A stretch of 46,896 nt of DNA, taken from the NCBI GenBank assembly GCA_027604005.1, contig JADGJT010000130.1, positions 1-46,896 of the forward strand, in the 5' to 3' direction. The translations under genes and the position numbers were made by a program. The notes below the pieces were generated by a model. That model ran no database searches. It worked only from the letters and a program-made list of their open reading frames with translations, and was not told where the DNA came from. The stretch is from Dinochytrium kinnereticum. Lineage: Eukaryota > Chytridiomycota > Chytridiomycetes > Chytridiales > Chytridiaceae. How positions within the stretch are numbered: position 1 is the stretch's first letter; each line of letters opens with the position of its first letter. Shown one piece after another: positions 4,905 through 32,935 of this stretch.

Positions 4905-7900
4905 CTACGCTAGCCCTAATGTGCCGAAACCCATGCAGTCTGGATCAGCAAGAGTGGCATTAATGCCAGACGTGATCATAAGCTCCGTGCACTGTTGTTG
5001 GATTCAGAAGAAAGAAAAGAGAGGAAGGAGGAAGTGTTGTTGGTCAGTGAGAAACGCTTAAAATGGAACCGAAGCTGGGACGTTTTTGGTTTGCGCATCA
5101 CACCGAAAAGCGGAGAGCTTGCATCAACGTGGCATCAACGGCAAAGGCAGCAAGCAAAAGACGCAAAGGGGCAAGTGCGGTCAGTTGAAAAACCCCCAGA
5201 ATGTGGGTTGGAAACGGCACACCGGTAGCATGGAAAAAGGCTCTGCCTCCCAAAAAACATGCATTCTCACATGCATAAAAATGAAAAGACGGCGAGGGGG
5301 AAAGGTGCAGGAAAAGCCTACAGGTTGCGCCTTGCGGCAGTGCCGACAACACAGATAAATCCGTGCATGCTGATTAAGGTTGCATTGACGGCAGCCGGCA
5401 AAAAACAACCAAATCTCACTCAGAGCCCTACAAACAACATACCTTGATATAATAATCTGGAGCACATCCGTCCAGGTCAAACCTGTTGAGTGGATGGAAA
5501 GGAATAGCGCTGAACATCTTCCCGCTCTGATCAGCCGCAGCCGCAAGAAAGATGATGGTGATGGTCACCGCAGCCCCCGAGTCAAAGGCAGCAGACATGA
5601 CATAAGCGTAGGTTCTCCACCAGTCTGGTCGATAATTCTTTAGCACCAAGTTCACCATGATTGCGAGGATGATGGGGGAGATCATGTCGGATCTCAGCGA
5701 GGAGACCGTCACAGGAAAGGAGACGAGTAGGGGAACGTTGACCAAGTGCCATGGCCAGTGAACTGGATTGAGGATTGTCGCAAGAGTGCTGCGAGGGCGG
5801 TTGGCGTCTTGGGAGCTGTTACGACGGGCCCCGAGGCGGTGGAAAGCATAGGGTATGAGAGGAAGAATGGCGCCGATAGCAAACCCGAGGAGAAGGGGCT
5901 GGTACGGTGATCCTGGCCCAAAGAAGCGTTTTGGCCCAATCAACCCCCAAATGGCTCCAGCATGCATGAACACCTCATACTGAACGGCTAGTTGTAAAGT
6001 TCGTTTGGATGATTCGTGTGGTGAGCGAAAGATGCAGAAATCATTAATGAAACGAAAGACCAAACTCACCATCCCAACCCTCCACCCTTCCTTCAATCTT
6101 CTCCCCAAACCTCACAAACACAATCTCCGCAACAACAACGTTAATCACAGCCGTCAGAGCAGTCGTTACGGTCTGCACCAGCATCAAAACCCTTGGGGGG
6201 ACTTTCAAGTAGTGACCCATTTTCAGATCTTGAGTCAACGCGAGGCCTTGGTAAACCCCCATGTAAGCCACCGTCTTGAACGCCATGACGGACCCCATGC
6301 GACCTTGGAGAACCCAGCCGGCTAGGAACTCGGAGATGACGTTCAGACCGATAGATTGGCCAGAGATGGCTTGGATCACTCCTAGGGGGATCATGGTGAT
6401 GCTAATCAGGAGGAGAGCGAGGATCGTTGACCACCAGGGAAGGTCGATGCCACCCCATTGACCAGAAGAGAGGACGAGAAGCGTCATCACAACCAAGAGC
6501 GCGCCGTACCAAATATCCGGAACTTCAGGGTATTGGTCCTAAATGATTCCAATACCAGTTTAAAGGTGGGTTTATGAAGCAGACTGGAAGATAGTAAAAG
6601 CCTACTCACCATCATCTTTGCATGGATATCCTCGGAATCCAAATCTCTAACACTGGTCCTAAACCTCATGACAATATCCCTCCCATACCACAACCAAACA
6701 TGAACCAAAGTCGCAGTGAAAGCCATAAACGCGGCACCATACTCCACCGCAAAGTAAGTTGAGATTCGAATCGGCTGCATCTCAGCATACCGCACCTCAT
6801 CCAACCTCATGGTCGCCTCCAGCAAACTGTGAGGGTGAATCTCAACCGTGCCATTATCAGCGCCAACCCCCTCGTCACCAACAACTTCTTCCTGTCGAAT
6901 CACATGGTAATTCGCCGCCATGTTCCATATGGATCGGTTTTGGTGTCTGCGGTGGCCGGATACATCTTCAAAGGTTGGCTCGGATCCGTTCGAGAGAGGT
7001 GAAGTGGGGGTTTTGGCGACCATCAGGAGAAGCTCCGTGACGTCGAAGGAGGTGCCGTCCTTGTCGAAGAGCGCGGCAGAGTTCATAGCGAGGCCCAGGG
7101 GGAATTCTCCCGTGCCGTTAGGTCCTTGCAAGGGGTTGGTGCCGACGATTCTGTCGCCACCAAATGCATTGCGAGACCAGAGGAGAGGGATGACGATCCA
7201 GAGCATGATGTACACTAGATTTTGGAAGTGGAGGTGATTGGTAACGCGTGAGTTTTGGGTAAGGCGACCGCAAGGAAAGAAAATGAATTCGATGAGGGGT
7301 CAGGCTTACATCCAAACACCTGGTTAAGGAGAGCCCAGAGAGGAGTCGTGATGGGTTGAACGACAGTGATAATTGTCCAGTCAAAGGTAAGTGAAAACAT
7401 TCCCAGCCCATGTCGAGCCGACCCCAACATCTTGCCAATCTGACTATTGGGGACGACATGACACATGAGGGACACAGCCGCCAACCCAGGCGCCAAATAA
7501 GAAGGTCCCAACTGATAGCAAAGCATACAGGCAGCCGCGATCCAGAAAGCCTTAAACTTTTTCTTCCCAGCGTCCCGAAGCGTCTGAGCAATCTTCTTTG
7601 CCTCCTCCTTCTCCTCGTCTTCTGTTGAAATTTTCTGTCCCTCTTTCTCGTCTTTCATAAACGCGTTCCCAGCTTGCCATCCTCCGCCGCGTCCACCAGT
7701 ACCCCATCCGCCACCGGCACCACGTCGCTCATCCACTGATTCCATGGAAGCCCAGGAAGCGGGTCTCCCATTGTTGTTTGACCTCCAAACTGGCTTGTCC
7801 GCCTCCTCCGCCGCCTTTGCCTCATCCTCCTCCTCCCATGTAGCATAAACATGCTTCTTTCCGGCATGAAGCGACGTCAAGATGGCGATGATGGACAAAT

Positions 7901-8866
7901 TCGCTGGCCAAAGCATCGCCGCGGGCCTCACCAAGAATCTTCTGCAAAGCCCTGCCATCCCGTAGCCGATCATTTGAGCACCAACTGCAAATGCTATGGA
8001 CCACCCCACTCGAGAGGTCATTGACATGCCGGCGTCACCTTGGATTCGACGTTGAGCGATAATGTTGTAGAGAGCGTAGGCGGGGTTGGCGGCGGCGGAG
8101 CTGATGATGTAGAGGAGGGCGTGCTCTTTTAGACTGAAGGGGCCAGGGTTTAGGGTGAATTCACCCAGGCTGAAGGGTAGGATGAAGTGGGTTCTGGGAA
8201 GGATTTTGCTGAGAAACGTGCCGAGCGGGTAACTGAGGAGGACACCAATAAGAGGGCTGATGAACTGGTTGTTTTTTTGGGGGAAAAGGGTCAAAATGAG
8301 ATGTTAGCATTTTCTAAAGAGCCACAAAAGGAGAAAGAAAGTTGAAGGGAATCGAATGGAGAGCATATCCAGGAAACGACACTATACAAATTCATTCGTC
8401 CTGAAGGTAAATAGTGTGTTGATGATCGACAAAGTTATCAGCAGAATAACCCCCATGATAACCACACGGAAAGTCAAAGCCGGAGTGTTGACATTATCGG
8501 TCTTGGGAACAACCGAGTCAACAATATCATAGATATCATCCATGAAGGTATCCCTCCCCACATCATCATCATCCGATGTGTCGCGTCCATTCTTCTTGTT
8601 GGACCGTGCGTTTGAGGGAAGCTCGAGATCATTATCATGAGCGTTGTCGAGGTCACCGTGCCAGGAATCTGTGGAGCCAGGGGAGATATCTATCAACATT
8701 TAGAAGAGTTGCCATCTCCAACATTATAAACACGAGCAAAAGCTCGCAGAATGCTCTCACCTCCATCCCTTGTCTTGATCTTGAACCTAAGATTCCGAAT
8801 ATCCTCTTCTTTGACCATCTTATCCAGCTTAAAGCCTTTTTGGCTCTGCTCCATAAACGGCGGCAT
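4905..8866 (-). CDS. Oligopeptide transporter, OPT family (PT clade), copy 1
   Basis: Proton-coupled uptake of small peptides across the plasma membrane is the known role of this family. Seven exons join in phase: 8761-8866, 8388-8689, 7310-8264, 6610-7214, 6070-6538, 5443-5987 and 4905-4991, giving 1022 residues. Two hallmark motifs are present: NPG (175-177, in LNPGPFSLKEH) and a KIPPR-type motif KVPPR (768-772). Many hydrophobic segments follow a hydrophilic N-terminus of about 100 residues. The final exon encodes 28 residues beginning CTELMITSG, matching the paralogue's last exon. Compared with the paralogue at 9345-12473, this copy lacks one intron and carries a long cytosol-like loop with a Gly/Trp-rich segment (translated from about 7660-7750). 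The last intron is 451 nt, far longer than its others. It is transcribed divergently from the paralogue, sharing 8867-9344. ATG 8854 is an alternative start. Substrate specificity cannot be read from sequence. Confidence 0.92.
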
Positions 8867-9344: not shown

Positions 9345-12300
9345 ATGCCTATGAAGAAGGGCAGGAACTCTGTGGACATTGGCACGTCCGGCAGGAGAAA
9401 TCATGTCAATGCCTTTGTGGCTGCAAGTGAGGCTGAAAAGAACAAGCAGACTTTTTACTTTGATGTCGACAGTGGTAAGTAAAACCCTAATACTCTCAAT
9501 GCCCTTTACATTTGATCAAAGCTAACCTGTTTTGTATATAGACAGTGGATCGATTCGGGAGCGCGACATTGATGACCCATACTATGGTAACGGCAAGAGG
9601 CCTACGTCTTTTGGGGAGTTTTCTACAAATAGCGATAGCTCCTCAGAAGACACCAAGTTTGATGTTAACGACGATATATATGATATCGTTGACGCGGTGG
9701 TTCCAAGATATGACGACCCGACCACGCCCGCTTTGACATTCAGAGTTTGGGTTATTGGCATCTTCTTCTCAGTCATTCTCGCCTTTGTGAACACTCTCTT
9801 CACCTTCCGAACAAACTTCTTTGTAAGTTTCTCTTAAACTGCAAGACTTAACTATTTGTTTTCAGAGTTTGAACCCCTTCATTGCCGTTCTTGTTTCTTA
9901 TCCCTTGGGTTCCTTCATGGCATGGACCCTCCCGGTTGGCATCTTCACCATCCCCTTCACAAACGTCCGATTCCAACTCAACCCGGGTCCATTCAGTTTT
10001 AAAGAGCATACCCTAATTTACGTGTTCACGGTGAACGCCGCAAGACCCGCTTACTGTCTTTACAATATCGTGGTTCAGAAGTACATCTTGGGTCAACCCA
10101 TTTCGATTGGGTGGTGCCTGGCCTTTGCGGTTGCTTCTCAGTGTTTTGGGTACGGGCTTGCTGGCTTGACCAGAAAGTTTTTGGTGAGGCCCGCCTCCAT
10201 GCTTTGGCCGTCCAATTTGGGCACCATTGCGCTGTTGAGGTCTCTTCATGAGAAAGAGGGGAAGGATGACGAGGGGGAGAAGAAGGAGAAGAAGGTTGGT
10301 TGGCCGTCTTCCCTAATCACTTTTTATTTTTTTTTCTTCTCTATCTAACCACTTATTTTGCTTGTTGACTGTTGCAATAGGGGATGTCGAGAACACGATT
10401 CTTTTGGTTCTGCGTTCTCGGCATGGCTATTTACCAGTGGTTCCCGAGTTTTATTGCTCCAGCTCTAGGCGCGATCTCCCTCCTCTGCCATGTTGCACCT
10501 AATAGTCAAAGACTCAAGATGTTTGGGTCCGCCAAGCAGGGTCTCGGCATGCTCTCATTCACATTTGACTGGTCGTTCATCACCGTCTACTCACCAATCG
10601 TTACTCCACTTTGGGCTTTCCTTAACCAATTTGTTGGGAGTGAGTCTTCTTTTCTTACCGATCCCTTGATTTGCATGTATTCTAACACCTCATGTAATAG
10701 TTTGGATCACAATGTGGATCATCATCCCTTTTCTTTGGACCAGCAACGGCTTCAGAAACGACCAGCAGATCGGTGCCAACCCCTTTGACGGTGCGAATGG
10801 GACTGGCCAATTTCCCCTCGGTCAAGCTCTGAATAGCCCTACTCTTTTTGACAAGAGCGGTCGAACACTCTCGGCGATTGACATTCTCACCATCACCAAC
10901 CATACTGTCACACTCAATGAAGAGGCTTACCAAGCTGTCGCGCCAGTCCTTCTCACCACTTACTTTGCGGTTCAGTACGCAAGTTACTTTGTGATGTTCT
11001 CTGCCGTGCTGTGCCATGTCTGGTTGTGGTATGGAAAGGATCTTTGGTATCGGTTTAAAACGAGTATGAGGGATTTGGATTCGGATGATATCCACGCAAA
11101 GATGATGGTGGGTTGATTGTCAAAATTCTTTTCCCCTAACGACATTTTTCCTGAGCAGGATGTTTACCCTGAAGTCTCCAATCTATGGTATATCTCCATC
11201 CTCGTCATCACCCTCGGCCTCGCCATCGCTGCTGGTCAATGGGGAGGCTTTGATTTGCCTTGGTGGGCGGTTCTTCTTTCCCTTGGCCTCTCTGGTGTCT
11301 GCATGATCCCGATTGGAACTCTTGAAGCCATATCTGGGCAGCAGATTGGACTGAACGTTGTTTCTGAGCTTGTTATTGGATACATCTTACCGGGGAGGAT
11401 GATCACAGTCATGTCGTTCAAGACGCTGACTTACATTTCTACGATTAATGGATTATTCTTGGTGGAGGACTTGAAGTTGGGTCATTATGCAAAGGTGCCA
11501 CCTAGAGCAATGTTTACGGTGCAGTTTTTTAGCACGTTGATGACGACTATTATCAATGTGCTTGTGGCTATTGGGGTTTATGAGGTGATTGGTGTGGATC
11601 GTATGAATAATGACCCGCCACTTGGATGGTCCCGTAAGTCTACCAAATTCTCTTGCCGAACCCGCACACTGCCCACGTTAACAAAAAACAACTGTTTTTT
11701 TCTTTGCACCCGTCATCTGCTTTAATCCGCCATCATCCAACTAAAACTTACATAAACAACACACAGCCGTCGGCTACCAGATCTTCCTAAGCGCCGGCAC
11801 AATCTGGGGCGGCATCGGTCCCGCTCGTTTCTTCGGCCCGGACTCCCCATACCAAAAATGTCTCTACGGATTCATCATCGGGTTCATCGCACCCCTCATC
11901 TTCTGGGTTATCCACAAAATTCACCCATCAGGTCCCTGGCATCTGATCAACGTGCCGCTCCTTGCCGTCTTTCCGATGCAGGCAGGCACCACTCGATCTG
12001 ATCTCATCACTCCGCTCTTGGTGGCGATTTTGGTGAATTACGTTGTGAGAAAGTATCGGTCTGAGTGGTGGCAGAAGTATGCCTATATTATGGCGGCGGC
12101 TTTTGATACGGGGGCCGCGATCTCTTTGACGGTTATTCTGATGCTTATTGGGATTAATCCTAGTTATAATATCTTTATGCCGTTCTATTATTTAAACCGG
12201 GCTGATCAGGAATCTTGTGCTCCGGAGTTTTATTTGGAGGTTTGTTCTCTTCTTTCCTCCCGACCCTTTTGTCTGTCTTTTTGTTCGGCGGTAAATCGGG

Positions 12301-12473
12301 TGACTTCTTGGGGGTTTTTTGTAATAACCAATCGTTCTTCCTTCCCTGACCCCACCTTACAGTGCACAGAACATATGATCTGGGGAAGCGCCTTTGGGAG
12401 AACATACAACGTCTCTGAAGATTCCGAGCTTTGTCAAACATTCGGGGGAGACATGATGATGACTGAGCTTTGA
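9345..12473 (+). CDS. Oligopeptide transporter, OPT family (PT clade), copy 2
   Basis: Same family and role as the divergent neighbour. Eight exons join in phase: 9345-9474, 9542-9822, 9866-10294, 10381-10639, 10701-11107, 11159-11633, 11767-12239 and 12363-12473, giving 854 residues, a usual length for the family. The N-terminal 100 residues are hydrophilic. The NPG motif is at 176-178 (LNPGPFSFKEH) and the KIPPR-type motif KVPPR at 614-618 (GHYAKVPPR). The conserved core NPFIAVLVSYPLG opens exon 3. Five intron positions match those of copy 1 exactly, so the two arose by duplication of one intron-containing gene followed by inversion. This copy has an extra intron (10295-10380) within the loop where copy 1 has an uninterrupted, longer insert. 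The start is the first ATG after the promoter; a second in-frame ATG follows two codons later. The 3' flank is T-rich. Confidence 0.93.
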
Positions 12474-25086: not shown

Positions 25087-25870
25087 ATGCTCACCACCAC
25101 CCTCGCCGTCGTCCTCCTCCTTGGAGCCCCTGCCGCGCTTGCTACCCCGCCGGGCATCAACCCCGTCGTTGTCACCGGTGTTCCTTCCACCTTTGACCAT
25201 TGCGCTAGGCTGAGGGAGGAGGGCAACCGCGGGTGCATTCACAACTTTCCTGCTGCCGAGACCGACAATGACCCTATGACGAGCCCTGCTTGCATTGCTG
25301 CGAGTGGAAGGTGCGCTAAATGCGTTTTTTGTTTTTTTTTTGGTGTTGTTGTTTTCTCCTTCTTCTTTCCTTCCTTCCTTCCTTTGCTCTTTTCCTTCTT
25401 CTTTCTCTTCTTATTGCGGGCATGTTTGACTCATGGCTGACCTCTTCCTCTTGCTGCGTGCAGATACGCCGACAAGTGCATTCAATCCGTTAACCAGAAC
25501 AAGCCCTTCAACTACAACTTCAACTACCCTCCCAGTGCGACCCCTCCCACAACCCCACCAACCCCTCCTCCCACAACCCCTCCAACCCCTCCCGGGTCTC
25601 CAGATGGACCTTTGGTCTCTGGAACCGCAAAGTCCTACACTGATTGCACCGACTTTCAGCATAGGGGGAACAAGGCTTGCGAGGCATTCCCAGAGTGGAG
25701 CCCCGACCCGTCCACACCTGTTCGCTACATGTGCATGAACGCAAACGTTGAGTGAGTCTATTTTGAATCCTGTCATTGCTAGGGGCTCTCTCTCCACCGC
25801 GTCCTCTTGACTGGCCTCTTTTATTTTTTTTTTTTTTTTTTTNNNNNNNNNNCCCGCCATGTGACGGGCC

Positions 25871-25903
<33 letters not shown>

Positions 25904-26380
25904 GTGAGTGTTTTTTTGTTTGCTTGTTTGTTTTGTTTGTTTGTTTTTTCTCTCTCTTTTTTATCGGTTTTGGTTTCGGCAGAAGATGTTAATCGACTCT
26001 TTTTTTTGTTGCCCAAAAAAAAAAAAAAAAAAAAAGGATCGGAAACGCTTGCTTTGCCGTTCCTTATGAGCAGGGTGGGAAATCTTACTCGTGGTCTTTC
26101 ACGTTCCCTTCTGGAACCAGGAGCCGATGGTCCGAGGTCTTTGATGAGGATGGAGGGGAGGTGGTTGAACGTTCTCGCCGGTTGTCACCATGCGAACGGG
26201 CTAGGATGCAACAGTTCAGGCAATGCCGAAGTCGGCCCGCGAGCTTGGCTTGCAAGATGGCTGAGAGAGAGTGAGTTGTTTTTTTGGTTTCTTGGGTTTT
26301 GATTTGTTAATCTTTCTTTTTTTTTTTTTTTTCTCAATTCCCCACCTCCTTTCTTTAGTGTCAAATATAGATGTCGTTAG
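25087..26380 (+). CDS. Secreted protein A with three four-cysteine modules (family not recognised)
   Basis: Four exons, 25087-25310, 25464-25751, 26037-26270 and 26359-26380, join in phase into 255 residues. A signal peptide (MLTTTLAVVLLLGAPAALA) predicts secretion. Three modules follow, each C-x10-C-x(n)-C-x10-C: Cys39/50/69/80, Cys136/147/165/176 and Cys223/234/243/254. The first Cys pair reads CARLREEGNRGC, CTDFQHRGNKAC and CERARMQQFRQC. Modules 1 and 2 are followed by an aromatic strand, FNYNFNY and YSWSFTF. Modules 1 and 2 are joined by a Thr/Pro-rich linker (TTPPTPP units). Module 3 has a short middle (x8) and ends the protein one residue after its last Cys. Each module is split by a phase-2 intron in the codon of the sixth residue after the third Cys. 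Exon 3 begins after a run of 20 or more A, and intron 2 holds a 10-N gap. Only Cys residues of the modules occur, so two disulfides per module are likely. Function unknown; gene B is a homologue. Confidence 0.85.
25843..25852. other. Assembly gap of 10 N
   Basis: Ten unknown bases lie inside intron 2 of secreted gene A, directly after a run of T. The real length of the gap is unknown. The flanking exons join in phase, so no coding sequence needs to be missing. Confidence 0.95.
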
Positions 26381-27656
26381 TGTCCGATATCACTGAGATT
26401 TTTGATGATTGTTTGTGGTTGTGTTGTGGTTGTTGTTGTTGTTTGTTTTGTTTTTGTTTGTTTTTTTTGGTTCCTGGTTTGTTGTTTGTTTTTTTGTTGT
26501 TTTTCTTTTTGTGTTTTTCCCAACCCTGCCTTTTGAGCGAATTGTGTTCAATACAACAGCCATCAGCTCTACATTATATTTCTTTTCTCATCAAAGCCAA
26601 CCAGCCAAGCCAGCCATTAACATATCAAGGAAATGCTAAAAAGTGTTTTGTTCATCCACCCAAAATCCATTATTTCCAAACAACCCAACGGTACTGGAAT
26701 GAAATTGCAAAGCCATTTGATCATGAACCACACTGGTTGGTGGGTCACCACCACCAACCACCACCACCAACCACCAACAACCGACCACCACCGAGAATGA
26801 AGCAACGAGAAAAACCAACCTGTAAAGAAGATTTGCTTGACACATGAAAAAAAGAGGCGTGAATCAATCTCTGACCACACCATAACAAAAAAAAAAAAAG
26901 GGTGTTTTTGCGGAAAGATAAACGAGGGCTGATGATTAACACGCTGGGGTTTTTTTCGCAAAAACAAAAACATTCACCCATATAAAGCAAACGTGGAAGA
27001 GCGGTGATAAAAAAACGAAAAAAAGAAAGAACTGGTGGGAGGAAGCGGGGGTGGGGGTTAAGGGTGGGGGTGAAGAACATCAAAAAAAAAAACAACAAAA
27101 CAATCTGCTCCTACACAACACCATGATGGGAAGAGAGAAAAAAGAGGGCAAGGAAAACATTAATCCTTCGTTGGGGGGGGGAATAAATCCAGAGCAAAAC
27201 TGAATGAACAGGGAAAGGGTCGGTTCAGAATAGATGAGGAGGCGGGGGTCATGAAAAAAAGGACCTGGAAAACCGAAATAATGGGAAGAGACAATTACGA
27301 ATGAAAAAAAATGGGGGGAGGAGAGGGGAGGAGGGGAGGGGAAGGGGGAAGAGACAGGTACGAATATTAAAAAAAAAAAAAAAGGACAGGTTTAGGCCCA
27401 CCGAAAAAAAAATATTAGAATAAAGATAGGGGCATGAGAAAGAAACAGCTGAGGCAAACTCGTCGAGCTAAAAAAAAAAAAAAAAAAAAAAGATGATGGA
27501 AGCTCTAAGGGAATATCGACGAAGATGTGGGAATAATGCAAAAAGCGTAGATAATGATCAGACCCGGAAAAAATAAAAAAGAATAGAAGCTCACTTGGCG
27601 GCAACAACAACAACAAAAAAAAAAAAAAAGACAAGGAACCAGCCAAGGAATGGTAT
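26381..27656. other. 1.3-kb A/T-run-rich stretch without a gene
   Basis: T-rich to about 26520, then A-rich on the plus strand, with A-runs at 27369-27383, 27471-27491 and 27615-27629 and a G-rich stretch at 27314-27350. A repeated CCACCAACCA pattern lies at 26748-26790. The ORFs are shadows of the skew. It is 3' flank for two convergent genes. Confidence 0.5.
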
Positions 27657-29151
27657 CTAAAGCAACTCAAGAATATCCAGAATCTGCTCTCCACTGTACG
27701 GAATGATTCCCTCCCCTTTCTTCTCAACTTCTCTGATGAGCTGGACAACGCGGTCGCAAACTGGAGTGGCCACGTTGTGTTCGATGCCGAGCCTGCAGAT
27801 CTCACCCTGGAGGTAGTCAATCTCGGTGAGACGCTTGGCTTTCAGATCTTCGTACGTTGAGCTCGTGGCTGTCCATAAGAGGAGGAGGAGGAGGAGGAGA
27901 GAATGGAACAGTCAGATTTTTAACCGAAAAACCAATGAAAGAAAGACCAGTTCTGATAGATCAAGGATCCAAAAAAAAAAAATAATATATAAAAAAAAGC
28001 GACCCCCAACCTTTCTCATCAATGGAGAGCATGCTTGAGGCGATGCGGAGGAATGCAAAATCGGGGAGTGAGAGAACGTAGGGAATCATCCAGACAGGGA
28101 TGGAGGTGAAGGAGGCGGGGTGGATGCCAGAGGCGGTGTAAACCGCCAATGCTTCGGAGATGCACTTTGATAGAACGTCCCTGAACTGACGCTGCGACAG
28201 CTCAGCCTTCAACGGGACACCAGAGAGCGCTGAGACTGCGTTGTTGAGGTTCAAAAGAAGCTTGCCTGGGGGGGGGGAACAAGGTTGATTTTTGTTAGCT
28301 CTTGGGTTGAATTTTAAGGCTGTCTGAGACGAGAGAAGAAAAGGAAGAAGGGAAAAACGAGAAGAAGAAACCCCACCATAGAGGACATTGTCCATTTCTG
28401 AGGAGACCTTGCAATCAACACCCGCAGCCAAGAGCAGCTTCATGAACGCCCTCCCCTTATCCGAATCAGCGACATAAACGGGCCCAACGGAAGCCTGGAA
28501 AAAGTGAGCCTCCTCCGGCTCAACAACATTAAAAGGCCACATGCCCTCCACAACATCCATGGTCTCCCCAACCAAATCCCTCAAAAAGCCCGCAGCCCTC
28601 GCCCCATTCTGCAAAGTGATCACAGTGGTGTTCCTCCAGAACCACCCATCCCCCTCTCGATCCCTCACCTCCTCCGAGAACCCAGCCTCCCTCAACTCCC
28701 TCGCGACCTCGACACTCGAAGTCCTCTTGACACACACCGCCAAGAACTCTGGCCCAACCTCCAACGACTCCTTGAACGCTTGAAGCGAGGTGTGAGGGTT
28801 AACCTGTGATGGATCCGCGTGACGGGTCTTGGGGACCGATGCGGCGTTGGTGCGAATCGTCACGGTTAGACCGTTGGCTTTCTTGATCTTTTCCATGAAC
28901 TTTGGTCGGCCTATGAAGTGAACCTTTGGGGGGAAGCTGGCAGGGCTTGTTGCGAGAGATGCGCCGAGATAGGATCCGATCAACCCTGCGCCGTAGATGG
29001 CGACGATGGGGGTCGCGGTCTGCGTGGAACCGGATGATGATGGGGCGGCGCCGTTCATTGCGTTTTTTTTGGGGAGAGTGGGGAAGATGGCGTGTGGGGA
29101 TGGGGATGCGTGCGTGCGTGCTTGCTGCGTAGAGGGAGTCGTCGTCGCCAA
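27657..29151 (-). CDS. Ketopantoate reductase family protein (ApbA/PanE)
   Basis: Family members reduce 2-dehydropantoate to pantoate with NADPH, a step of coenzyme A synthesis, although fungal genomes hold several divergent paralogues. Three exons, 28377-29151, 28011-28265 and 27657-27868, join in phase into 413 residues. The Rossmann nucleotide-binding loop is GAGLIGSYLG, preceded by the strand IVAIY. LQNGARA and the downstream helix GKLLLNLNNAVSAL match the conserved N and K/N positions of the family. The C-terminal helical domain contains SSTYEDLKAKRLTEIDYLQG, the usual substrate-side signature (S-S-x-x-x-D-x-x-x-x-R-x-T-E-I-D-x-x-x-G). The N-terminus has about 45 extra residues before the Rossmann strand, Ser/Thr/Pro-rich; Met32 (MNGAAPSSSG) is an alternative start, or the extension may be a targeting sequence. 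Whether this paralogue makes pantoate or reduces another keto acid cannot be told. Confidence 0.9.
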
Positions 29152-29750: not shown

Positions 29751-31740
29751 TCAAGCCTTGCAAAGCCCACCGGCAAGCCCTTCACTCGTCATCTCATCCA
29801 ACACACGGATCGCAGCTCCAAGGCACCACCCCGTCTCCACCCCGTCAATCTTTTTAGCTGTCTTAATCTCTCTCCCTCCCCTGATCTCATAACCAGTCGC
29901 AAGGAGGTGATAAATAAACCCCAGATCCATGCAGACCGCCGGCTCATTCTTAACAGCCAATCCAGGTCTACCGTCCACCCCCTTCGCTGCACCCTTCCTG
30001 CCTCCGTGAGGTTTACCATCCAAACCAACAGCACAGATCTGATCTCCAACATCGCGAATGCCGTCCACGCTGAACGGGGTTGGGTCACCATTGCCGTCAA
30101 CAAAGTATCCGAGCTCCACTGTTCGATCGTAAATGTAGCTGAACGCGTAGATGTCTCCATCGGGTTCTGGGAACGCGACCGCCATCGGGGGTTGGTGAAC
30201 GCCATCCCATGAGCACGGATCGACGGAGCATCTTGAAGGGTCCTTGTCAAAGAGATGGGCAGAGACGTACTGCGAGCAAGCGGCAAACCCAGACCCGCTG
30301 CCTTTCACCGTGACCTCGACCACCTCCTTCTTCTCTTCATCTTGGACAGTCTGAAAAGCGGACCGGGGAAGGGAGACATTCATGGCGTATCCGTGGGGAA
30401 GGCAAGGTAGGATGGGATCGGTAGACGACTTTTGCTTTGTGGCACTTTTGGTCACTGCTGCTTTGAGGAGGGACTTTCGACCCTCCATCAGGCCGTAGCC
30501 GAGGTAGGAGTGCTGGTAGAGGACGTAGCTTCGTCCGTTGAACTTTAGGTCGTAGCGGTGGTCTCCCGGGGCAAGAGGAGGGTCAGCGTTGAGTGGCTCA
30601 AAGACGATTTGGGTTGAGCCGCCTCCGAGATCCATAATGGCGGCAGTTGGTTTCCGATCCTTGGAGGTGATTCGCTTCAGGAGATAGTTGACCGTGATCC
30701 ACGCATAGACGCCTGAAATGTTGAACGAATCAAGCAGTGAGTACTTTGGCATATCTGGCGGTTGAAGCATGACAAAAACAGACCTTCATCACGACCATCC
30801 ATGACACCAACCCCATCATCCCCAGAAATGACTTGAAACTTGTACTTATTCTCCAATCTGTTCCTCACTGCCGCAAGAATGTCCTTACTCTTCTTCTCCC
30901 CGATAAGCCTCAACCCCGCCGTAGCCTTCACAGCCACCGGCGTGCACCCTCTCATCTCCTCATCAATAGCCTCCTCCGCCTTCTCCATCAACTTATCCAA
31001 GCTGGCGGCGGCACCCTCCGGATCATCGGCAAAAGAAGACAATCCAGGCTTCAACTGATGAAAAATCTCCCCAAGGAGAGTTGGCTGGGGACCATCGCAA
31101 AAGTGGAATCGATAGACATGGATTCGGGATCCTGTTGACCCTGCATCGATCATGATCGCATGCTGGAGGAGAGGTCGGCCTGGTGTCAAAGGCTTTTCAC
31201 ATGGAGGTTTGGTGTGGAAAGTCGTTGGGACCTTGGCGATGGTTGTGGCCTTCTTCTTGGTGGAGTTTGGACCGACGGCGATGTTGGGCTTGGGGTTGGC
31301 CTTTTGGGGAGACACCTCACCTTGTCCCTTAAGGGCTGCATTGGGGAATGATTAGGCATGTTAGGTTCGATTGGGCATTCCAACGCCTCGTCAAGGCATC
31401 AAGAGGGGGAAGGAGAGGTGGGGGGGGGGCTCAACAAGAAAAGGCCAAATCCGCATGATGGCGATCGATTCCATCTCCATCACCCTCATCTCAGCTACGG
31501 CAACAAAAAAGAAACCAACTTTGGAAGCGAAGCAAACATACATGGATTCGGAATCACGAACGCGAACAGCAAGAAAGTACAGAGCGCAAAGATCCCAAGG
31601 CATCCAACGATCCTTCTCACGGGATAAACGTACGACAAATTCGCCGAAGCAGGTTGATACGCAGCTGTCGTTGGGAGTCGTTCATAAGGTCCAGCGATTC
31701 CAGCGTTGCTTCCCCTTCTCCGCGACTTTGGAGATGCCAT
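29751..31740 (-). CDS. GDA1: Golgi-type guanosine/nucleoside diphosphatase, GDA1/CD39 family
   Basis: Hydrolyses GDP (and often UDP) in the Golgi lumen, which permits nucleotide-sugar exchange for glycosylation. Three exons, 31542-31740, 30784-31335 and 29751-30712, join in phase into 570 residues. Type II topology: a basic cytosolic tail (SPKSRRRG), one membrane helix (about residues 43-63, IVGCLGIFALCTFLLFAFVI), then a lumenal stem. Apyrase conserved regions are in order: ACR1 DAGSTGSRIHVYRF (from residue 130), ACR2 VKATAGLRLIG, ACR3 GRDEGVYAWITVNYLL (split by the intron at 30713-30783), ACR4 MDLGGGSTQIVFE and ACR5 around AFSYIYDR. Length and single N-terminal helix fit yeast Gda1 better than the two-helix CD39 proteins. 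Without the first exon the protein would lack its membrane anchor; the first exon joins in phase, which supports the model. Confidence 0.93.
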
Positions 31741-32266: not shown

Positions 32267-32935
32267 TCAAAAGGGAAATTGCAGGTTGTAATGATATGGG
32301 GGAAACCGAGTTCGCGTGCACAGCATGTATTGCAAGCCATTGGCATCAAAGCAATATTTCCTGGTGGGACCTCTATCCGGCCTCCTCGTTGGGACCGCCA
32401 TGCATGCCCCACGTCCCATTTCGAAATACCTTGAGCAATCCGACCGCCTGAAAGCCATCTGCGAGATAATAACCGTTCCTAGCCGAACTCGATTCACGAT
32501 GTCATATTGTAGACGCTCCGACAAGCCTTTTTCATTCGCTTCGATGGGAGGTGGGGGTCCGGGGTTCGGTTCGCCTTGAATAGCCGGTGGTGGAATCTCG
32601 GTGGGAGTGGGGAAGGGATCAAAGGAAAAGTCGTAGTCAAACCTTCCCGTTTGAGCAATGGATGAGAGGCACTTTTGGGAATACCTTTAGGTTGTGCGTC
32701 AGGTTAACTATTGGCATGGGTCACCTCAAGCGAGGGCCACCTGGAGAACTTACATGTAACTGTCTCCATAGCACTTTGACGAACCTAGCTCCGGAGTCAA
32801 CGAGTAGCACGCCATGTTGCTGTCAGAGCGAAGGCGTACGCAGTCGTCCTCGTTCCGAGCGGTACCAGTCACCTGAACGGCGGCAGCGGATTGAAGAAGC
32901 GCGATGCTGATGATGGCGAGGAGTTCTGGATGCAT
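32267..32935 (-). CDS. Secreted protein B with two four-cysteine modules (homologue of A)
   Basis: Two exons, 32754-32935 and 32267-32684, join in phase into 199 residues. A signal peptide (MHPELLAIISIALLQSAAA) predicts secretion. Module 1 has Cys32, 43, 55 and 66 (CVRLRSDSNMAC, then x11, then CYGDSYMYSQKC) and is followed by FDYDFSF. Module 2 has Cys144, 155, 172 and 183 (CSRYFEMGRGAC, then x16, then CFDANGLQYMLC) and is followed by YHYNLQF at the extreme C-terminus. All Cys pairs are spaced x10, as in gene A. The linker is Pro-rich (PNPGPPPP). The single intron is phase 2 in the sixth residue after the third Cys of module 1, identical to the three introns of gene A; module 2 lacks it. Without the intron the frame stops after 61 residues. 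Function unknown. Confidence 0.85.

Follow-up and report, generated by a model that had tools for sequence, protein, structure and literature searches.

A repeated four-cysteine module encoded by gene A

What kind of protein is encoded by a locus whose predicted product repeats a single cysteine spacing six times over, and does that protein stand alone? We addressed this question for gene A, which lies in a window of 46,896 nucleotides (the whole stretch of Dinochytrium kinnereticum DNA that was analyzed). The initial annotation had proposed a product of 255 residues, spliced from four exons and built from three modules with six exact C-x10-C pairs. Re-reading the DNA returned the same model: the reading frame begins at the ATG at 25087, its stop codon ends at 26380, and the 12 Cys residues of the predicted product fall at positions 39/50, 69/80, 136/147, 165/176, 223/234, and 243/254 (Table 1). 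The four Cys of each module (C1 to C4) are thereby separated by gaps of 10-18-10 in module 1, 10-17-10 in module 2, and 10-8-10 in module 3. The alternating aromatic strands said to end modules 1 and 2 (FNYNFNY and YSWSFTF) were found in both of these modules and in these only; module 3 forms the C terminus of the protein and carries no such strand, and no Pro-rich linker separates it from module 2. The signal peptide claimed for the product is supported by eye.

Table 1. Exons of genes A and B in window coordinates (C3+6, sixth residue past the third Cys of a module).
Feature	Position	Strand	Content
Gene A exon 1	25087..25310	+	Signal peptide (by eye) and module 1 as far as C3+6; recovered by own-genome search
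Gene A exon 2	25464..25751	+	Phase 2-2, 288 nt; remainder of module 1, FNYNFNY (25507-25527), Pro/Thr linker, module 2 as far as C3+6
Gene A exon 3	26037..26270	+	Phase 2-2, 234 nt; remainder of module 2, YSWSFTF (26086-26106), module 3 as far as C3+6
Gene A exon 4	26359..26380	+	Final Cys of module 3 and stop; weakest exon
Gene B exon 1	32754..32935	-	Signal peptide (by eye) and module 1 as far as C3+6; donor GTAAGT, phase 2
Gene B exon 2	32267..32684	-	Remainder of module 1, FDYDFSF, Pro-rich linker, intronless module 2, YHYNLQF, stop

The repeated spacing is not a product of coincidence. If 12 Cys are scattered at random over 236 residues, the six alternate gaps all come out equal with a probability of 2.4e-8, and among 1,000,000 simulated arrangements the maximum was five equal gaps, reached 9 times, with six never seen. 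The earlier assertion that a six-fold exact x10 spacing is very unlikely by chance was therefore well founded, and this probability, together with the common intron position described below, rules out a chance origin.

The three introns of gene A, with donors GTGCGC, GTGAGT, and GTGAGT, are all in phase 2, and each interrupts the codon of the sixth residue beyond its module's third Cys, which is residue 75 in module 1, 171 in module 2, and 249 in module 3. Because the introns share one codon and phase per module, and recur in five modules of other genes, they support the exon model, and we rejected a splicing artifact in the main. Exon 4 is the least secure part, since the frame that lacks it simply stops soon afterwards, two codons past KMAER; of six AG acceptors tried in 26290-26560, only the one at 26358 (TTTCTTTAG) yields a Cys at x10. 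Exons 2 and 3 are symmetrical 2-2 units and can therefore be duplicated without a frame shift. Intron 2 (25752-26036) contains 10 N flanked by long T and A tracts, either an assembly gap or a stretch that was withheld.

The module recurs in a second gene of the window and on M43 proteases

Gene B, a second family member in the window that was absent from the initial annotation, lies 6 kb from gene A and faces it. It was first seen as a weak within-window match to the gene A protein (E 0.009, and 0.016 in another search), and its predicted product of 199 residues contains two modules with gaps of 10-11-10 and 10-16-10. Between genes A and B lie a ketopantoate reductase-like gene (27964-29151, minus strand) and a GDA1/CD39 nucleoside phosphatase recognized by Pfam in two overlapping frames (29754-31315, minus strand). 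Elsewhere in the window, two adjacent divergent genes (5428-8294, minus strand, and 9869-12473, plus strand) appear by eye to be oligopeptide transporter-like.

When the gene A protein was searched against its own genome (22.4 Mb in 558 contigs), three significant matches were obtained elsewhere, at C246 (E 1.6e-12), C32 (E 1.2e-9), and C82 (E 2.4e-8), each to the stretch encoded by exon 2. Reading of these loci revealed a single layout, in which one module leads into a strand of the FNYxFxYP type, after which come a linker, a Cys motif, and an M43 domain, so that in three genes the module is fused to a metalloprotease. The spliced C246 product matches Pfam Peptidase_M43 with E 2e-17, contains the motif HEVGHWVGLHH, and carries the module outside the Pfam match; the C32 and C82 frames hold the same zinc motif, as judged by motif. 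A putative pro-segment Cys lies before the catalytic part, in the context CRTVSR in C246 and C32 and CGAVSR in C82. The linker that joins module to pro-segment is long only in C246, where it consists of Pro, Ser, and Thr, and that of C82 is rich in Ser/Thr rather than Pro. A search with the C246 N terminus as query also found C80 (E 0.04), in which the module, an intron, and the strand are followed by a stop; this order was judged by reading, with the 5' exon boundary left undefined.

The M43 profile (PF05572) matches 11 places in the genome: seven on C261, plus C246, C86, C32, and C82. The module is present at three or more of these 11; the gene on C86 begins at the contig end, its N terminus lying beyond the contig. 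The module was not seen in the M43 genes of C261 (seven of the 11 matches), and for this reason M43 enzymes do not require it. The C261 matches fall inside ~10.4 kb as a tandem protease cluster, in which two of the frames read have a different Cys-rich N-terminal stretch. Neither the zinc site HExxHxxGxxH nor the M43 profile is found in genes A and B, and there is no M43 match on contig C130.

The single protein with an unusual module that had been reported is thus confirmed, and is now one member of a family of nine modules in six genes with a common intron. C-x10-C holds in 18 of 18 pairs, the middle loop varies from 8 to 18, an alternating aromatic strand follows C4 in eight of the nine modules, and all six genes have N termini that by eye resemble signal peptides. 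The same intron (C3+6, phase 2) interrupts eight of the nine modules, including module 1 of gene B and the modules of C246, C32, C82, and C80, and these introns are homologous across modules; module 2 of gene B is the sole module that lacks it.

Likeness among the modules extends beyond the cysteines. We scored each non-protease module against the three protease modules (C246, C32, and C82) and against 1000 shuffles in which Cys were held fixed and all other residues were permuted. Five of the six non-protease modules resemble the protease modules by this measure: no shuffle in 1000 reached the score of gene A module 1, gene A module 2, gene B module 2, or the C80 module, and 2 in 1000 reached that of gene B module 1. 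Gene A module 3 does so weakly (17 of 1000 against the protease modules; 110, 226, 462, 768, and 741 of 1000 against the other five), and it is counted in the family because both of its Cys pairs are spaced x10 and it has the intron. Module 1 of gene A is nearest to module 1 of gene B (z 8.0), and the second modules of the two genes pair with z 5.2, a pattern that may reflect duplication of a two-module ancestor and the gain of a third module by gene A.

The module is absent from the catalogs searched

Neither gene A nor its modules had a Pfam match at E <= 1, and at E <= 10 there was none for the three protease modules or for gene B, module 3, and the C80 pieces, in searches where HMMER filters drop weak matches; its PAN/apple models left the modules unmatched. 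Four modules searched against NCBIfam gave no match. A phmmer search of the PDB with the whole gene A protein returned chains of the viral protein Ac66 (E 0.008), a match to residues 54-121 that includes the Pro/Thr linker and was taken as compositional, and the best PDB match to module profile A1 had E 0.53. In viral and prokaryote contigs, each scanned with two degenerate peptide patterns derived from four modules, 32 and 52 stretches matched and none was confirmed, in a search that reaches near relatives only. Among the papers listed in literature searches, titles and abstract openings held no description of the module. Three further matches were set aside as chance: C210, which is Pro-rich; C93, in a Pro-rich linker region; and C275, which encodes a flagellar protein resembling CFAP61 (Pfam E 5.6e-15).

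The view that no known domain is involved held for Pfam, for NCBIfam (four modules), and, in that no match was convincing, for the PDB; it extends to prokaryote and viral contigs, eukaryote proteins being outside the scope of the search. Our best reading is that the module is uncatalogued relative to these resources and that its kind, a small disulfide-rich accessory module with probably two disulfides, is a known one. The Cys pattern, also put forward as new, matched no named family, but its x10 spacing is not unique and has counterparts in CBM1 and in Cox6B and Coa6.

A candidate tether for secreted proteins

We tentatively favor, at somewhat less than an even chance, the view that the module, uncatalogued as it is, acts outside the cell as an accessory domain by which secreted proteins are tethered or targeted, as CBM1 does elsewhere. 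Gene A encodes a probably secreted protein of three tandem four-Cys modules (C-x10-C, loop, C-x10-C), and the module would have spread by duplication, helped by the phase-2 intron inside it. We infer the tether role because the module precedes a linker and a putative Cys pro-segment in three M43 proteases. There it would hold the secreted zymogen to a surface or polymer, probably via the aromatic strand, and cleavage of the pro-segment would free the catalytic domain from its tether. In genes A and B, what the module would hold in place in this way is the multi-module protein. The conserved aromatics could also be core residues, which counts against binding by the strand.

Comparison with described proteases places this arrangement in context. 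The account of unicellular pappalysins in PMC6949598 describes zymogens whose latency depends on a short Cys-switch pro-segment. Three genes of the family resemble M43 pappalysins (PF05572) in having a complete M43 domain, here after the module, whereas no protease domain occurs in genes A, B, and C80; the occurrence of the module without an enzyme in these genes favors, at the level of gene layout, an independent binding function. Accessory domains on the secreted proteases of eukaryotes are described as rare in PMC10084794, whose account of the oomycete Aphanomyces euteiches includes secreted C1A-CBM1, C1A-CAP, C1A-ML, and subtilase-PAN modular proteases. As in those enzymes, a secreted protease is joined to a non-catalytic domain, but the accessory domain is C-terminal there and N-terminal here, and the oomycete examples involve other protease families and known domains.

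A module that is absent from Pfam and is used alone, in tandem, and on metalloproteases would offer a handle on the extracellular machinery of zoosporic fungi; its intron records its duplication, and its 45-65 residues make it a defined target for structure and binding work. A more ambitious version of the tether model is doubtful as a whole, namely that the modules constitute a new domain family with its own small fold, which arose in a flagellated fungal lineage, spread by phase-2 exon duplication, and, up to the release of the enzyme, anchors pappalysin zymogens and multi-module scaffolds to a polymer or to the surface of a host.

Alternative accounts of the module

The tether model competes most directly with the idea that the module belongs to the pro-region of the protease, serving as a folding aid or inhibitor, in which case the products of genes A, B, and C80 would resemble free pro-regions and act as inhibitors or decoys of M43 enzymes. 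Because the module precedes the putative Cys pro-segment in all three fusions, it would depart with the pro-region on activation; this order of elements fits a tether shed on activation, and it fits a plain pro-region too. We nevertheless consider the pro-region account unlikely: genes A, B, and C80 lack the pro-segment Cys and the stretch that follows it, a tandem, linker-separated layout is unlike that of a compact inhibitor, and the C261 M43 genes show no sign of the module.

Quite unlikely, in our judgment, is a helical hairpin with C1-C4 and C2-C3 bonds, which would make the modules secreted look-alikes of the mitochondrial twin-CX9C (CHCH) proteins. Cox6B and Coa6, presented in PMC6743065 as CX9C-CX10C helical hairpins, have that fold and those bonds, and their paired Cys, like those of the modules, are about three helical turns apart. 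AlphaFold, run with few or no relatives, likewise placed a helix over C1-C2 of module 3 in a model of gene A exon 3 (pLDDT 67.2) and around C1 in gene B module 2 (pLDDT 57.5). The same models contain strands, however: past C4, including YSWSFTF, in the former and around C2, C3, and C4 in the latter. Neither model had a PDB fold match at E <= 0.001 (the best were at E 1.2 and 0.1), a result that says little for queries of such low confidence, and the new small fold suggested in the initial annotation stays a conjecture. In a periodicity test using Chou-Fasman and Eisenberg values, the helical moment of the C-x10-C stretches was not above shuffles for segment 1 (P 0.59) and was borderline for segment 2 (P 0.05), whereas the strand-like moment (180 degrees) was raised in both (P 0.005 and 0.0035), so that periodicity leans toward strand over helix. 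No module stands out for likeness to Cox17 beyond the Cys (504-1895 of 2000 shuffles), and CHCH proteins belong to the mitochondrial intermembrane space, whereas family N termini look by eye like signal peptides.

CBM1 is a cellulose-binding domain with a three-stranded fold and C1-C3 and C2-C4 bonds. That the modules are far-diverged, cellulose- or chitin-binding CBM1 domains with a longer middle loop we hold to be decidedly unlikely. They resemble CBM1 (PF00734) in having four Cys with a C-x10-C first pair and in being linker-joined accessory domains of secreted enzymes, and they share with the Cel7A CBM1 a Gly at C1+7 and an Asn at C3+4, each in six of the nine modules. The spacing given for CBM1 in PMC3145793, Cx10Cx5Cx9C, differs from theirs in its loop (5 against 8-18) and its second pair (x9 against x10). 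Against Cys-fixed shuffles, the three protease modules score above expectation with Cel7A CBM1 (62, 12, and 91 of 2000), but these are close paralogues compared with a single CBM1 reference, and the other six modules are not above shuffles (149-687 of 2000). Moreover, the idea arose after the spacing was seen, Pfam CBM_1 matched neither the modules nor anything else in the genome at E <= 10, the modules have an aromatic strand of their own past C4, and the binding aromatics of CBM1 are not in place. Kinship with CBM1 is therefore unproven, and the two may be alike in role without it.

Finally, the modules diverge fast (16-41% identity to gene A module 2 in alignment A1), as might lineage-specific proteins that are effector-like or form a structural coat and bind no specific ligand, their M43 fusion being chance exon shuffling, but this reading is very improbable given that the module is retained beside M43 in three paralogues and that the four best modules share 12 invariant columns in addition to the 4 invariant Cys.

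Elsewhere in the genome, chitin synthase matches, which together with the CFAP61 flagellar domain suggest a flagellated, chytrid-like fungus, reach E 7.9e-199 with a model that also matches 4 of 14 controls from bacteria and archaea, and contig C30 carries, at about 69-100 kb, many Peptidase_S8 (subtilase) matches that apparently form a tandem cluster.
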